NCBI RefSeq assembly: GCF_014161445.1
Contig: NZ_JABBXA010000025.1
Coordinates: 1 to 64,000, forward strand
Length of the DNA stretch: 64,000 bases
Source: Microbispora sp. H13382
Lineage (GTDB): Bacteria > Actinomycetota > Actinomycetes > Streptosporangiales > Streptosporangiaceae
Reading direction: 5' to 3'
Shown: positions 4,517 to 10,503 of the stretch, one piece after another
Position numbering within the stretch: position 1 is the first letter of the stretch
Layout: each line of letters begins with the position of its first letter
Translations under genes and position numbers: made by a program
The notes under the pieces: model-generated
Seen by the model: only the letters and a program-made list of their open reading frames with translations
What the model was told of the DNA's origin: nothing
Databases searched by the model: none

Positions 4517-5368
4517 TCACCTGGCGCCGAAGATGGCGGCGTAGACGCCGTTCTCCATGTCGATCCAGGCCGGGTACAGCCCCTTGGCCGTCATCTCGTC
4601 GAACCGCGCCTGATACTGGGCGGCGCTCATCCCGTGGAAGGCATACCAGCGGCCGATCTTGTCATTTCGCCAGATTGTGGTGTAGGACATTCCGCCAGGT
4701 TCGACCGCGATCACGGACGGCCGATATCCGGCGCTGACCCGTGCGTCGAAGACCCGCTGGTATTCGGATGCAGGCACAGAGGTTGTCACAGTCCAGGAGA
4801 CACGCGAGGGGTTTTCCGCCCAAACTGCGACCATCCGCGGGCTTGACGACGTTCCGTACACGTTGACCGAGACGGGGATGTAACCGTCGCGTCGCGCATT
4901 GAGATTGGCCGCACTGAACTGCCCGGTGTCGATGCCGTGGCGTGCGGTTCCCCTGCCCGCCTTCTTCTCCCAGATGGCGGTGAACGTGGCGTCGGGTCCG
5001 CTGCCTGTCGCGGTCACCATGGTCGGCTGGTAGCCCATCGCCGTGAACTTGTCGAACGCTCCCTGGTAGGCGGCCTCCCCCCTGGCCGTCACGGTCAGGT
5101 GCCAGTCCGGCCCGGGCCTGTTGTCCGAGAACATGGCCCATCTCTCCTGTACGCTCTGCCGTCCGACCGTGAGAACCACCGGACGTAACCCCGAGGCCTT
5201 CGTGGGGACCCTGTCCCACACCCGTTGGACGCTCACGTCGTGATGGGCGCGGTACTTGTATGCGGCGGCGGTCTCGGCACGGGCATCCGCCGACGCCGAG
5301 GGCGAGGCCACCGAGACAGCGGCCAGGACCATCGTGACGGCCGCCGTGATCTTCCGCGACGTACGCAT
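4517..5368 (-). CDS. Secreted protein of bacterial tandem repeat type (BTRD1-like), 283 aa
   Basis: The ATG at 5368 follows AAGGAGGAG and starts a signal peptide (MRTSRKITAAVTMVLAAVSV, cleavage near ASADA). The mature protein consists of four ~50-residue repeats, each with a pattern like Y/F-x2-xFDxxxAxGYxPxxVxxxGxxxxTxxWE. This resembles the bacterial tandem repeat domain 1 family, found in secreted hydrolase-associated proteins. No catalytic domain is attached, so the protein may be a stand-alone carbohydrate- or protein-binding repeat protein. Function is unknown; secretion and repeat structure are seen directly. Confidence 0.8.
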   Translation of the reverse strand: MRTSRKITAAVTMVLAAVSVASPSASADARAETAAAYKYRAHHDVSVQRVWDRVPTKASGLRPVVLTVGRQSVQERWAMFSDNRPGPDWHLTVTARGEAAYQGAFDKFTAMGYQPTMVTATGSGPDATFTAIWEKKAGRGTARHGIDTGQFSAANLNARRDGYIPVSVNVYGTSSSPRMVAVWAENPSRVSWTVTTSVPASEYQRVFDARVSAGYRPSVIAVEPGGMSYTTIWRNDKIGRWYAFHGMSAAQYQARFDEMTAKGLYPAWIDMENGVYAAIFGAR

Positions 5369-5449
5369 CGTCTCCTCCTTCGCGGGCCAGGCACTCAAGT
5401 TAGGCTCGCCGGCGGCTGGAATTGATCCGTGTCAGCACGGAGACCGATC

Positions 5450-6880
5450 TCAGTGCCACCGCGAGCCGGGGCGATACCAGAAGACCAGCGCGACGAGCAG
5501 GGCGATCACCAGGGCGCCGCAGGCCCAGAGGAACACCGCCGAAATGGTCTCGGCGAGACCACCCGTGCCCCGCGTGAGCGGGATGAGCATCACGGCCAGG
5601 CCGAACGAGCCGCCGATCGTGAGCGCCGTCTGCAGCACACCCGCGGTGACCCCGGCGCACTCCTTCGGCGCGGTGGTCAGCACGATCATGTTGAACGGGA
5701 TGATCGCCACGCCGACGCCGAGCCCCATGACGACGAGGCCCGGGAGCACGCCGCCGGCGTAGGTGCCGCCGCCGTCGAGGCGGGTCAGCCAGGCGACCCC
5801 GGCCAGCACCACGAGCAGGCCGGCCACGGCACGCGTCTTGAGACCGATCCCGGCGATGCGCTTGGTGAGGATCTGGGTGCTGACGAGCAGCGCCAGGCCG
5901 AAGGGCAGGATGGCCAGGCCGCTCTGCAACGCGGTGAGGCGCAGCACATCCTGGAGGTACTGGACCAGGTAGATCAGGAAGCTCGTGAGCACGGCCGCGA
6001 GCAGCAGCAGGGCGAGGAAGGCGCCGGCCCGCTCGCGACCGGCGAAGACGGCCAGGGGCAGCAGCGGCTCGGCGGCCCGCCGGTCCACCAGCAGGAAAAC
6101 CACCGCCAGCACGACCGCGGCGCCGAGGGCGGCCAGCGTCCAGCGGTCGCCCCAGCCCTTCTCCGCCGCGTGCACGAGGCCGTACACGGCGGCGGCGAGG
6201 GTGGCGGTGCTGAGCAGCGCGCTGCACATACCGGAAACACTGGCCAGGCCGCGCGGGCGGGACCGGGTCGCCTCGTCCCGCAGGCCGAGGGCCCGGGCGG
6301 CGACCGCGATGACGACCAGGCCGATGGGCACGTTCACCAGCAGGCTCCAGCGCCAGTCCCCCGCCCATGTGAGCACGCCGCCGAGCACCATGCCGGCGGA
6401 GGCGCCGAGCCCGGTCACCGTGGAGTAGAGACCGAAGGCCCGCTGCTGCCGCTCCCCCTGGAAGACGATCGCCAGCAGCGCCAGCCCGGTGGGACCGGCG
6501 ATCGCCGCGCCCGCGCCCTGCAGGACGCGGCCGGCGAGCAGCACCTCCAGGTTAGGTGCGAGCCCGGCGACCAGGGAGGCCACCACGACCAGCCCGATCC
6601 CGGAGAGGAAGACCCTGCGGTGCCCGAGCACGTCGCCGAGGCGGCCGGCGAACAGCAGGAGGCCGCCGAAGGCGAGGAAGAAGCCGTTCGGCACCCACGA
6701 TCCCCCGGCCACCGACAGGTGAAGGTCGGACTGGAGGGCCGGGAGCGCGACGTTCACGATCGTGCCGTCGAGCTGGAGCATGAACTCCGCCCCCACGATC
6801 GCCGCGAGCACGAGGGCCCGGGCGCGGCCGGCCCGTGACACGTCCGCCGAGACGTCGCCGGAGACACGTTCGGTGGTCAT
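5450..6880 (-). CDS. MFS drug-resistance exporter, DHA2 (14-TM) type
   Basis: 476 aa with about 14 hydrophobic segments. The DHA2 landmarks are present: LDGTIVNVALPALQSDL in the first helix region (the D1-type motif), the motif A loop GRLGDVLGHRRVF between TM2 and TM3, and motif C-like GPTGLALL/GLGASAGMVLGGVLT. Such proteins export drugs or other amphiphiles using the proton gradient. It is divergent from the TetR gene at 7018, with three copies of a common operator between them. A locally regulated exporter of a toxic compound is therefore likely; the substrate cannot be told. Confidence 0.93.
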   Translation of the reverse strand: MTTERVSGDVSADVSRAGRARALVLAAIVGAEFMLQLDGTIVNVALPALQSDLHLSVAGGSWVPNGFFLAFGGLLLFAGRLGDVLGHRRVFLSGIGLVVVASLVAGLAPNLEVLLAGRVLQGAGAAIAGPTGLALLAIVFQGERQQRAFGLYSTVTGLGASAGMVLGGVLTWAGDWRWSLLVNVPIGLVVIAVAARALGLRDEATRSRPRGLASVSGMCSALLSTATLAAAVYGLVHAAEKGWGDRWTLAALGAAVVLAVVFLLVDRRAAEPLLPLAVFAGRERAGAFLALLLLAAVLTSFLIYLVQYLQDVLRLTALQSGLAILPFGLALLVSTQILTKRIAGIGLKTRAVAGLLVVLAGVAWLTRLDGGGTYAGGVLPGLVVMGLGVGVAIIPFNMIVLTTAPKECAGVTAGVLQTALTIGGSFGLAVMLIPLTRGTGGLAETISAVFLWACGALVIALLVALVFWYRPGSRWH

Positions 6881-6913
6881 GGAACCTCCACGGTTCGCCG
6901 AAAGAGCCGAGAG

Positions 6914-6995
6914 TGAGGCGCCCTCAGGTTAGCGGGCGCATTTATACTGAGGTCATCTCAGGTTGCGTAAGGGGATTCAAGCTGAGGCATCCTCA
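6914..6995. promoter_or_regulatory. Three tandem TetR-type operators, TGAGG-N3-YCTCA
   Basis: Three 13-bp near-palindromes are seen: 6914-6926 (TGAGGCGCCCTCA), 6948-6960 (TGAGGTCATCTCA, flanked by C and G to give 15 bp) and 6983-6995 (TGAGGCATCCTCA, also C/G flanked). Their centres are 34 and 35 bp apart. They fill the space between the exporter start (6880) and the regulator start (7018), so one repressor probably controls both genes. Confidence 0.7.
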
Positions 6996-7017
6996 GGATG
7001 TCAAGCGGGAGGTACCG

Positions 7018-7602
7018 GTGGACGGCAAGCCCTACATCGCCCAGCGCCCCAAGCGGGCCGACGGCCGGCGCAACTACGACGCGATCCTGGCCGCGGCCCG
7101 CAAGGCGTTCGAGGGCGCCGGCGCCGACGCCTCCCTGGAGGACATCGCGAGCCAGGCCGGGGTGGCGATCGGCACGCTCTACCGGCACTTCCCCACGCGG
7201 GCCTCGCTCGTGGAGGCCGCGACCCGGGACGGCCTGGAGAACCTCGTCGCCCACGCCGAACGGCTGGCCGCCGGGCCGGACCCGCTCGACGCGCTGATCA
7301 CCTGGATGCGTGAGGCGGTGGTTCACTTCAGCACCTTCCGCGGCCTGGTGGGCATCCTCGCGCAGAGCATGTACGACGAGGGCACGCCCTCCCACACCAT
7401 GTGCAGCGCCATGCACCGCGGCGGCGCGGACCTGCTGCGCGCCGCCCAGGCGGCCGGCAGGGTGCGGCCCGACCTGACCCCCGACGAGCTGTTCGACCTC
7501 CTCAGCGGCGCCGCCTGGGTGCGCGAACAGGCGACCCCGGACCGGGACGGCAGCGCCCGCTTCCTCGAACTGGTGCTGGAGGGCATCACCACACGGGACT
7601 GA
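7018..7602 (+). CDS. TetR-family repressor of the adjacent exporter (194 aa)
   Basis: The N-terminal TetR helix-turn-helix is evident: NYDAILAAARKAFEGAGADA then SLEDIASQAGVAIGTLYRHF (residues ~16-55). The C-terminal domain is helical and resembles the TetR subgroup that controls MFS exporters (SBP-like C-terminal domain). The GTG at 7018 is chosen because GGGAGG at 7007-7012 gives a five-base spacing; it also leaves all three operators outside the coding region. The divergent exporter is the obvious target. Confidence 0.9.
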   Translation: MDGKPYIAQRPKRADGRRNYDAILAAARKAFEGAGADASLEDIASQAGVAIGTLYRHFPTRASLVEAATRDGLENLVAHAERLAAGPDPLDALITWMREAVVHFSTFRGLVGILAQSMYDEGTPSHTMCSAMHRGGADLLRAAQAAGRVRPDLTPDELFDLLSGAAWVREQATPDRDGSARFLELVLEGITTRD

Positions 7603-7728: not shown

Positions 7729-10503
7729 TCACCGCGCGTCCAACGCGTACACGTTGCCGTCCCAGCCGCCGACGTACACCATGCCACCGGACACCACCGG
7801 AGGGGCGCCGACCGCACCGCCGGTGCGGTAACTCCACCGCACCTTGCCGGAGGCTGCGTTCAGCGCGTACACCGAGTCGTCCCAGCTGGAGACGTACACC
7901 ACACCGCCGGAGACCACCGGAGCGCTGGCCCAGCCATCGGTCCAGTAACTCCACCGCTCCTTCCCGGTGGCGGCGTCCAACGCGTACACCGAGTTGTCCC
8001 TGCTGCCGACATACACCACACCATCGGACACCACCGGAGCGCTGACCCAGCCACCGATCCAGTAACTCCACCGCACCTCCCCGGTGACGGCGTCCAACGC
8101 GTACAGCGAGTTGTCCCTGCTGCCGACGTACACCATGCCGCCGGACACCACCGGAGGGGCCTCGACCGCATCGTTGGTGCGGTAACTCCACCGCACCTTT
8201 CCAGAGGCGGCGTCGAACGCGTACACCGAGTTGTCGAAGCTGCCGGCGTATACCGTGCCGCCCGACACCACCAGAGAAGCGACCCAGCCGCCCACCCGGC
8301 GACTCCACCGCACCTCGCCGGAGGCGGCGTCCAGCGCGTACACCCGGCCGTCCTCACAGCCGACGTACACCACACCGCCCGACACCACGGGGTCGGAGAA
8401 GACGGGCGCGTCGATCCGGTGACTCCAGCGCACCTTCCCGGTGACGGCGTCCAGCGCGTACACGGAGTAGTCCCTGCTGGCGGCGGGGTTGTTCTTACTG
8501 CCGACGTACACCATGCCACCGGACACCACCGGGACAGAGAGGACGGACTCGTCGATCCGGGGGCTCCAGCGCTCCTTCCCGGTGACGGCGTCCAGCGCGT
8601 ACACCCGGCCGTCGAAGCCGGCGACATACACGACGCCGCCGGACACCAGCATGGTGTCGTCGGCGGCGGGGTGGCTCCAGAGGGCCTTTCCCGTGACGGC
8701 GTCCAGCGCGTACACCCGGCCGCCACTGGCGACGTAGACGACACCGGCGGACACCACCGCGCTGGAGTGGATGCCGTTGTCCGTCGGATAACTCCAGCGG
8801 ACTCTCGATGCGGGGGCTGCCACCGAGGCACCGGCCCGCTGCGGGTAGCGGGCCAGCAGGTTGTCCCGCAGCAGCGGAGCGAGGAGTCGCACCGCCAGTC
8901 GCGAGGTGGCCGTGAGCTTGACGATGACCGGACCCACGTTGACGAGCGCCGCACCGAGACCGCCCGCCGGCGAGCCTTCGGTGTACTGGAAAATCTGAGA
9001 GCTCTCGCTGGTGGGATCGAAGGTGTCCCGCTGCTTCGCCAGGGCCACCTCGTCGGCGAACAGCTTCTGCGCGTCGCCGTTCGAGGAGGCCACCCACATG
9101 ATGGAAGCCGACACGGTGACGCCCTCGTCAACGGACGGAATCCAGTCGCATGCCGCGGGATTCGGGAGCGCCACATCCCCCAGAACCCGGGCATGCGGAC
9201 TGGCGAAGTAGCCGTCCGCGATGACTTTCAGGTCGCCGTCGGTCAGAAGAGCGCAGGCATCCGGCCAGGCGCCCGGTTCGATGCCGCCGAGCGAAGCAGG
9301 CCCGGCGGAAGCGCCGTACGCCATCCGGTAAGCGGTGACGCGGCCGCTGCCATCGTGGTCACCGGCCGGAACATAGACGAGGGCCAGGTCGTCGGTCGTG
9401 CCCAGAAGGGCGGGCTGGGACCTGTGGGGGATGTCGAGGGGGAATCCGTTGAGGTCGCCGGTGCCTGCGTCCAGAGAGATCAGGAATACGGGACTCGGCC
9501 ACCCGTCGGATAAATAGACGGACCGTCCCCTGGCTACGACGGTGGACGACTCGAAATACGAGGGCCGGGTCCAGCGGACGCGGCCGGTGACCGGATCGAC
9601 GCCCCTCGCCTGCTGACGGGAGCCGGGAGTCCGTGGAACCAGAAAGGCCTTGTTGGCGGTGGTGAGGAGCCGGCCGTCCGGCGTGTAGATGGACGCGGTG
9701 CCCTCGATCCTGACGTGGACGAACCCCTCCGCGTCGATCGTCACACGATGCAGCAGGTCGGTGAGCCGTGACTCGTTCACCGGGGACGGCAGTTCGCGCG
9801 TCCACCGAGGCCGCAGGGTGGCAGGGTCCATCGACGCGAGGCGCAGCCCGCCGCCCTCGCAGTAATCGAGGAGGACCACCGACCGCTCAGCGACTGTGGC
9901 GTCCAGATCGCAGCGCCGCGGATAGGTCATGCGCGCCCTGGTCGTCCCGGTCCTGGGATCGAGAACCTGCATTTCGATGGGCTCGGACGACCGCTGGAAG
10001 ACCACGATGTCCCGCCGGTTCACCAGAACGTCCGGCCCTGTGTAGGTGCCGACGTGTCCGGTCTTCGTTGGATCGTCCCCCGATATGGCGACCGTACGCT
10101 GCCACAGCGCGGCGCCGGTGGCCAGGTTGTAGCCGGACAGGACGCGGTCATCCCGGTCGGGCACCGCTCTGGACACGACGAGCGTCCCGGTGGCGATCCA
10201 CATGCCGGCGATCCGGGGAAGCGTGGGATCCGGGGCGATCGTGTACCGGAGATCACCGGTCTGCGGGTTGTGGACCGCTATGGCACCCCGACGGGTCGCC
10301 ACCACCAGGGCGTGATCGGACACCTTGGGGTGTGCGTGCCCCACGACGTCTTCAGGGTCCAGGTCGGCGGCCACCGACCAAACGGCCCGCCAGCCTACGG
10401 GGACCTGAAGGAGGCGCGGCGTGTCGGCCACCACGGCCAGGTACGCCAGCAGGGCCATCACCGACAGGCCCCCCAAAGCGCGCAGGGCCCGCCGGGTCAG
10501 CAC
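7729..10503 (-). CDS. Membrane-anchored PQQ-repeat beta-propeller protein (924 aa)
   Basis: The GTG at 10503 starts a short basic N-terminus and one hydrophobic segment (LGGLSVMALLAYLAVVA), so the bulk is extracytoplasmic. Residues ~30-600 contain degenerate propeller repeats (e.g. ALWQRTVAISG). Residues ~620-924 hold nine tandem ~38-aa repeats of the form PVVSGGVVYVGSxDxxVYALDAxTGKxRWSY, the PQQ-like (BamB-like) blade. The repeats are also close at DNA level (7740-8820). No catalytic quinoprotein residues are obvious, so a binding scaffold is more likely than a dehydrogenase. It overlaps the end of the upstream single-TM gene by seven bases, and the two are probably co-translated. Its role is unknown. 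Confidence 0.85.
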   Translation of the reverse strand: MLTRRALRALGGLSVMALLAYLAVVADTPRLLQVPVGWRAVWSVAADLDPEDVVGHAHPKVSDHALVVATRRGAIAVHNPQTGDLRYTIAPDPTLPRIAGMWIATGTLVVSRAVPDRDDRVLSGYNLATGAALWQRTVAISGDDPTKTGHVGTYTGPDVLVNRRDIVVFQRSSEPIEMQVLDPRTGTTRARMTYPRRCDLDATVAERSVVLLDYCEGGGLRLASMDPATLRPRWTRELPSPVNESRLTDLLHRVTIDAEGFVHVRIEGTASIYTPDGRLLTTANKAFLVPRTPGSRQQARGVDPVTGRVRWTRPSYFESSTVVARGRSVYLSDGWPSPVFLISLDAGTGDLNGFPLDIPHRSQPALLGTTDDLALVYVPAGDHDGSGRVTAYRMAYGASAGPASLGGIEPGAWPDACALLTDGDLKVIADGYFASPHARVLGDVALPNPAACDWIPSVDEGVTVSASIMWVASSNGDAQKLFADEVALAKQRDTFDPTSESSQIFQYTEGSPAGGLGAALVNVGPVIVKLTATSRLAVRLLAPLLRDNLLARYPQRAGASVAAPASRVRWSYPTDNGIHSSAVVSAGVVYVASGGRVYALDAVTGKALWSHPAADDTMLVSGGVVYVAGFDGRVYALDAVTGKERWSPRIDESVLSVPVVSGGMVYVGSKNNPAASRDYSVYALDAVTGKVRWSHRIDAPVFSDPVVSGGVVYVGCEDGRVYALDAASGEVRWSRRVGGWVASLVVSGGTVYAGSFDNSVYAFDAASGKVRWSYRTNDAVEAPPVVSGGMVYVGSRDNSLYALDAVTGEVRWSYWIGGWVSAPVVSDGVVYVGSRDNSVYALDAATGKERWSYWTDGWASAPVVSGGVVYVSSWDDSVYALNAASGKVRWSYRTGGAVGAPPVVSGGMVYVGGWDGNVYALDAR
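7740..8820 (-). repeat. Nine tandem ~117-bp coding repeats
   Basis: The 3' third of the propeller gene is a tandem array with a period of about 114-120 bp; one unit is longer (insert at ~8480-8510). Each unit contains a stretch encoding SGGVVYVG and one encoding VYALDA. Neighbouring units share long identical stretches, which suggests recent duplication or gene conversion. The opposite strand is open throughout but only because of the repeat composition. Confidence 0.8.

Follow-up and report, generated by a model that had tools for sequence, protein, structure and literature searches.

The closest described relatives of this locus are systems in which a TetR-family regulator gene lies beside a divergent gene and their intergenic DNA holds several operators. 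In TetR/TetA, two 15-bp palindromic operators repress the divergent repressor and MFS pump genes, according to the accessible part of PMC3511530. SimR/SimX pairs the simocyclinone repressor with an MFS exporter, and the exported compound was shown to de-repress the system, as described in the accessible part of PMC5812520. Two Streptomyces coelicolor systems have three operators each in the account that PMC3511530 gives in its accessible text: SCO7222/SCO7223, with three perfect TGGAACGNCGTTCCA repeats beside a monooxygenase gene in 146 bp of intergenic DNA, and ActR/ActA, with three weaker palindromes beside an MFS gene in 110 bp.

We found a comparable arrangement in the window (the whole stretch of 64,000 nucleotides of Microbispora sp. 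H13382 that was analysed), where 137 bp of intergenic DNA, counted from start codon to start codon, separates an exporter gene from a tetR gene and holds three palindromes (Table 1). The TetR/TetA-type features of a divergent MFS gene and operators are present, and the overlap of these sites with both promoters rests on the putative promoter elements discussed below; unlike TetR/TetA, as far as the accessible account goes, the locus has a third operator, another operator sequence and a second, unlinked target. As in SimR/SimX, a TetR-family gene is divergent from an MFS exporter gene and there is more than one intergenic operator. In contrast, SimR/SimX is described in the accessible text as having two operators rather than three, a place within an antibiotic gene cluster and a known ligand, whereas here a monooxygenase operon elsewhere in the genome has the same operator. 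SCO7222 and ActR, again in the portion of the source available, resemble the locus in that a single TetR-family protein has three operators between its gene and a divergent one; they differ from it in operator sequence, and here one regulator would have a pump and a monooxygenase as targets at two loci.

Table 1. Genes, candidate operators and putative promoter elements (window positions unless a contig is named).
Feature	Position	Strand	Remarks
DHA2-like MFS exporter gene, 476 aa	5450..6880	-	ATG at 6880, GGAGG Shine-Dalgarno; divergent from tetR
Candidate operator site 1	6910..6930, core 6914-6926		would be auxiliary; over the region where a tetR -35 would fall
Putative tetR -10, TATACT	6943..6948	+	last base overlaps site 2; partly confounded with the operator outer arm
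Candidate operator site 2	6944..6964, core 6948-6960		at the putative tetR -10/TSS; predicted early transcribed region of MFS
Putative weak MFS -10, TTGAAT	6975..6980	-	18 bp from the -35; TTRAMT in relatives
Candidate operator site 3	6979..6999, core 6983-6995		within the spacer of the putative MFS promoter
Putative MFS -35, TTGACA	6999..7004	-	fixed distance from the operator at MFS and monooxygenase promoters
tetR Shine-Dalgarno, CGGGAGG	7006..7012	+	
TetR-family regulator gene, 194 aa	7018..7602	+	GTG start; TetR_N and TetR_C_43 (SbtR-like C-terminal domain)
Host monooxygenase gene	contig C22:50204-51196 (L106:4202-5197)		composite unit C22:51247-51276; second operator 31 bp downstream

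The exporter scores 154 bits against MFS_1 (cut-off 33.4), and its best TIGRFAM is TIGR00711 (EmrB) at 204.0 bits, below the cut-off of 230.2, so we call it only a DHA2-like MFS protein. The regulator has the helix-turn-helix domain PF00440 (TetR_N; 48.5 bits, cut-off 24) and the C-terminal domain PF21597 (TetR_C_43; 83.6 bits, cut-off 27). Its structure model has nine helices of at least four residues (mean pLDDT 80.5), and its top PDB matches are TetR proteins. The closest solved structure is SCO0520 (PDB 2q24; phmmer E 1.4e-27 and the best Foldseek match), which has the same TetR fold and, at 36% identity, is not an orthologue. SbtR of Thermus thermophilus, the namesake of PF21597, shares the same Pfam C-terminal domain; the accessible part of PMC4948773 reports that SbtR binds TGACYRNNYRGTCA, and the sites here, CTGAGG-N3-CCTCAG, do not match that type of operator. 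Two other proteins lie close by on the minus strand: at 7729-10503, a 924-aa repeat protein whose PQQ-type beta-propeller repeats resemble the C-terminal part of AfsK (NF053615 at 218 bits, cut-off 1300; a kinase domain is absent from its Pfam hits), and at 4517-5398, a 293-aa protein in which four stretches match the BTRD1 repeat known from polyglycine hydrolases (PF17660, 131 bits).

A pattern scan of the window recovers three TGAGG-N3-YCTCA palindromes with 13-bp cores, TGAGGCGCCCTCA at site 1, TGAGGTCATCTCA at site 2, where one arm has a C to T change, and TGAGGCATCCTCA at site 3. The preliminary description had placed three such palindromes between an exporter and its TetR gene, and both their positions and their start-to-start distances of 34 bp (sites 1 and 2) and 35 bp (sites 2 and 3) are exact. 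When we simulated 400 sequences of 64 kb with the dinucleotide make-up of the window, the plus strand held a mean of 0.095 sites per sequence, and no simulated sequence had a pair within 60 bp or a triple within 100 bp. A pair of 13-mers 15-28 bp apart occurs in one of 396 sampled actinobacterial genomes, which is the host, and the reversed-pattern control occurs in none. The single 13-mer is not rare: it is found at 13 places in the 8.7-Mb host genome (11 forward and 9 reverse matches), as compared to 13 forward and 13 reverse matches for its reversed control, and a scan of the window with one mismatch gives 8 strand-matches against 6.6 expected. It is through clustering and conservation only that the sites are significant. 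The genome scan by which the preliminary description meant to delimit a regulon thus gives a near-random result with the bare 13-mer, whose genome count is not above the reversed control, and we dropped it as a regulon definition. A 17-mer with up to three mismatches was also useless (523 matches per strand, 766 per strand in its control). Nine further single 13-mers in the host genome have no match to the composite pattern defined below.

To compare orthologous promoters, we collected the loci of relatives with a match to the TetR protein (22 loci, 14 at 76-97% identity and 8 weak); the records include Planotetraspora, Streptosporangium, Actinomadura, Amycolatopsis and Actinokineospora. Among 15 Microbispora genomes, the host and 14 others, 12 of the 14 have the tetR gene (88-97% identity); the best TetR matches in the remaining two, G002 and G004, are only 46% and 38% identical. 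With that of the window, the comparison covers 21 promoters between divergent tetR and MFS genes, all with a TetR of 75% identity or more; G660 and G729, where tetR is not divergent from the MFS gene, stand outside this set. Sites 2 and 3 are present in all 21. Counting mismatches out of 12, site 3 has 2 in Amycolatopsis and 3 in Actinokineospora, and site 2 of G728 has 3. Site 1 is good (at most one mismatch) in 14 promoters, decayed in three (G001, G009 and G011, with 4 mismatches and an intact left arm) and absent in four (G014, Amycolatopsis, Actinomadura and Actinokineospora). The arms are conserved across orthologues and the three central bases vary freely. Of the two results that had been named as speaking against the sites, random frequency in the genome is thus nearly what the bare 13-mer shows, whereas for the other, absence from orthologous regions, the constancy of sites 2 and 3 favours them.

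We then aligned 55 instances of the operator from tetR/MFS loci and 18 from monooxygenase promoters. Because the core was used to pick the instances, its conservation in these counts is by construction, and the informative positions are those outside it. Among the 44 instances that do not abut TTGACW (sites 1 and 2 and the second monooxygenase operator), the outer A (-10) and the outer T (+10) are each found in 42, and the G at +7 occurs in 43 as compared to 23 for the C at -7, so that the unit is not fully symmetric. The other 29 instances (site 3 and its monooxygenase counterpart) are less telling here, since one outer base is shared with TTGACW. The outer A and T are present at all three sites of the window. 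On the strength of this conservation, the putative operator unit is about 21 bp, ANNCTGAGG-N3-CCTCAGNNT, and so larger than the 13-bp core. At the recognition helix, all 15 TetR proteins compared from operator-bearing loci have residues A50-I51, which are also present in one of 17 paralogues (that of L027), a correlation that fits a dedicated operator. A related operator with a different spacing lies in G023 (L026), where the palindromes TGAGACTGTCTCA and TGAGGCAGTCTCA, 23 bp apart, are found upstream of a diverged TetR paralogue of about 42-44% identity.

A standard sigma-70 scan of positions 6800-7100 returned no promoters and no terminators, so the promoter elements were derived from conservation in an alignment of 18 promoters, with one identical row left out. 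In 17 of the 18, TTGACW keeps the same distance to site 3 (M. bryophytorum has TTAACT). The MFS -10 candidate has a non-canonical T at position 2, and the TTRAMT bases overlap the operator outer arm GGTTA, so that conservation of promoter and of operator is confounded there. At the place of the tetR -10, TANNNT is found in 16 of the 18 promoters (the exceptions are L044 and L045); this place reads TAGGGT in Actinokineospora and TAGCAT in G729, and TATGAT lies two bases off in G660. From these patterns it seems reasonably likely that the pump promoter carries site 3 in its spacer and that the tetR -10 abuts site 2. We set aside TATAAA on the minus strand as a pump -10, since the sequence TAGGGT found there in Actinokineospora reads as a -10 on the plus strand only and TTGACW keeps its place relative to site 3.

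To identify other candidate targets, we searched 297 genomes of the order for pairs of the motif and found matches in 24 genomes (control, 0). Thirteen of these are Microbispora genomes with the tetR/MFS locus, and 8 of the 13 have a second pair elsewhere. Also among the 24 are G580, G614, G623 and G687; in the ORF lists around the pairs of G580, G623 and G687 we found no tie to this regulator. In the host, the second pair precedes a gene on contig C22 for an MsnO8-family, luciferase-like flavin monooxygenase (TIGR03558, 348.6 bits, cut-off 166.95), which is followed in the operon by a flavin reductase, an SsuE-like FMN reductase and a family-5 solute-binding protein. Orthologues of the monooxygenase with at least 90% identity are present in 8 of the 15 Microbispora genomes, all 8 of which have the tetR gene, and outside this set in G618 (92%), whose tetR/MFS sites are identical to those of the Planotetraspora record, and in G637 (87%). 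The operator is present in 9 of 9 distinct orthologous monooxygenase promoters, and G618 is a tenth; in paralogous monooxygenases of 36-48% identity it is found within 200 bp in 0 of 22 (one partial match was left out of this count of paralogues and orthologues). Five of the 13 regulator-bearing Microbispora (G003, G005, G007, G012 and G014) have no monooxygenase match above 47%, and thus the monooxygenase is an accessory target.

In 7 of the 8 loci compared, the gene after the monooxygenase operon's redox genes includes one for a family-5 binding protein (L106, L107, L109, L114, L115, L116 and L188); the exception is L108, where tetR is the neighbour of the monooxygenase. Directly upstream of the monooxygenase, we saw by eye pieces that look like polyketide synthase at L114:63-4534 (G006) and L116:5491-9524 (G009), and in some strains the monooxygenase may be part of a natural-product cluster. 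As a -35 of the monooxygenase promoter we also considered the second TTGACT, which comes after the first operator, and set it aside, as no -10 fits when the operator spacing changes from 38 to 31 bp.

The MFS and monooxygenase promoters share one layout, TTGACA, three bases, the operator core and TTRAMT, in which the operator fills the 18-bp spacer. We searched the genomes for this composite pattern (TTGACW, operator, TTRAMT) with up to two mismatches and found 21 matches in 13 of the 15 Microbispora genomes (control, 0), comprising 13 MFS promoters and 8 monooxygenase promoters and nothing elsewhere in these genomes. G002 and G004, the two without an orthologue of the TetR gene, have no composite match, which supports reading the sites as its operators. 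Matches at these loci are partly by construction, since the pattern was derived from them; the informative parts are the lack of other matches, the co-occurrence with the regulator and the case of G729, which belongs to another family. Among 394 genomes of the class, 9 match (control, 0), of which 6 are Microbispora and 3 are from that other family. In G729 (L184, G729:C1:4421000-4435000), the MFS gene (63%), the monooxygenase gene (67%) and tetR (71%) lie within about 5 kb, with the composite unit before MFS and before the monooxygenase; tetR has a site of its own, some 45 bp before its start. Genes of Dpp-type uptake, for a family-5 binding protein and a permease, adjoin this cluster. G875 and G899 have the composite unit before a monooxygenase of 66-67% identity, and the 12 and 19 kb inspected in these two genomes contained neither a tetR nor an MFS orthologue.

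G660 lacks the divergent arrangement of the MFS gene and tetR, but each of the two genes still has sites before it. The MFS gene has two sites, the first of which is imperfect and lacks TTGACW at the usual distance before it, which makes this promoter an exception to the composite unit, and tetR is preceded by one good and one imperfect site. That the sites precede the same genes when gene order changes, in G660 and in G729, favours reading them as operators. G660 also has two closely similar operators, at a distance of 36 bp, that precede a large gene for a LuxR-type regulator with a GerE domain (L111:4239-4287; G660:C1:3311500-3319500), with an oligopeptide-type ABC ATPase gene nearby, and this LuxR-type gene is a possible extra target in G660.

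The comparison thus gives the sites, their conservation, the second target, the co-occurrence with the regulator and the gene clustering of G729. On this basis, we hold it highly probable that the palindromes are operators of the TetR protein encoded next to them, which would repress the pump gene, its own gene and the monooxygenase operon; binding, repression, the promoter elements with their start sites and the ligand are what we infer from it. The claim in the preliminary description that the sites act on both divergent promoters is very probably right, given that arms are conserved and centres are free in orthologues. One TetR dimer would occupy each 21-bp unit. A dimer at site 3 would fill the spacer of the pump promoter and a dimer at site 2 would cover the -10 and start of tetR, so that both MFS and tetR would be repressed, and site 1 and the second operator of each pair would strengthen repression. 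The same TetR would repress the MsnO8-family monooxygenase operon, a target that the preliminary description had not anticipated. The repressor is probably released by a ligand, a small molecule that would probably be a substrate of the pump and the monooxygenase. More tentatively, the repressor may tie together the exporter, the flavin monooxygenase and a family-5 (peptide/nickel-type) ABC uptake gene as an import-oxidise-export circuit, in which a promoter module with a perfect -35, an operator in the spacer and a second operator about three turns downstream would place paired operators as a tunable roadblock on both promoters; we regard this as possible, on the less likely side.

The preliminary description went further and took the three phased sites to suggest cooperative binding that silences both divergent promoters. 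In such a helically phased array, neighbouring dimers would touch or loop the DNA and so silence both promoters together. The distance between sites 2 and 3 is indeed nearly constant, at 35 bp in 18 of 21 promoters (36, 31 and 34 bp in the remaining three), which speaks for a constraint on spacing. That between sites 1 and 2 is 34 bp in 15 and 33 bp in two of the 17 promoters with an intact or decayed site 1, and both distances hold even as the intervening bases diverge. At the monooxygenase promoter, too, two operators stand about three turns apart; the pairs in Microbispora and G637 are spaced 31 bp (the host and G008), 37 bp (4 loci) or 38 bp (3 loci), and in the monooxygenase promoters of G729, G875 and G899 the best second match, with one or two mismatches, lies at 35, 35 and 38 bp. 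Across promoters, however, the range of 31-38 bp, or 2.95 to 3.6 turns, exceeds half a helical turn and sets no fixed face, and for this reason we rejected strict helical phasing; the word phased is at best approximate, as the host itself uses both 35 and 31 bp. At 10.5 bp per turn, 34 and 35 bp correspond to 3.24 and 3.33 turns, which would rotate neighbouring dimers by about 86 and 120 degrees rather than set them on one face, and between dimers on 21-bp units 13-14 bp of DNA would stay free. The constant 35 bp may have no other cause than the fixed relative position of two divergent promoters. Site 1 is moreover dispensable, being lost or decayed in 7 of the 21 orthologues. This loss and the three-operator systems SCO7222 and ActR in the accessible text of PMC3511530 leave the suggestion that three sites are more than a simple repressor needs unsupported. 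We therefore consider such an array rather unlikely.

A second alternative is that the TetR protein is an activator, or a mixed activator and repressor, whose dimer at site 3 would assist polymerase at the pump gene, where the -35 is perfect and the -10 poor. The weak TTRAMT -10 and the position of the operator in an 18-bp spacer fit this, and such a layout can favour activation in other families. Site 2 and the second monooxygenase operator would, however, overlap or follow the start site, and operators in such places are typical of repression. Some TetR-family proteins do activate, for example AtrA, according to the accessible part of PMC3511530; in contrast, the same portion of that source reports that for divergent TetR genes with less than 200 bp of intergenic DNA, as here, all five tested were repressors. 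Activation is therefore quite improbable. Least credible of all is that the palindromes serve as hairpins in leader RNA or as sites of an unrelated global regulator: each could form a short hairpin in either transcript and the bare 13-mer does recur across the genome, but composite matches in the 15 Microbispora genomes are confined to the MFS and monooxygenase promoters and to genomes that carry this TetR gene, a site precedes tetR itself in three gene orders, and a free three-base centre with conservation out to ±10 is as for a helix-turn-helix dimer.

Operator repression by the divergently encoded TetR, the reading that we prefer, thus describes a small two-target switch of a familiar type and not a new mechanism, and its main features are known one by one from TetR/TetA, SimR/SimX, SCO7222 and ActR. 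The new part is that a pump and an unlinked monooxygenase share one operator. We found no report of this in the literature searched, which covers few subscription papers, so that this absence is weak; among the papers listed, none deals by its title with a TetR operator of this motif or with this regulator in Microbispora, and a match to a CCTGAGG operator concerns, by its title and abstract, Fur in an acidophile.

Taken together, these data suggest that an orphan exporter belongs to a defined regulon of two promoters whose operator can be tested, and that the number of operators can be understood for each promoter by itself instead of as one array. Because the regulator appears to control the monooxygenase and, in most loci compared, an uptake gene, the identity of its ligand would reveal which compound, perhaps a natural product, Microbispora senses, modifies and exports.
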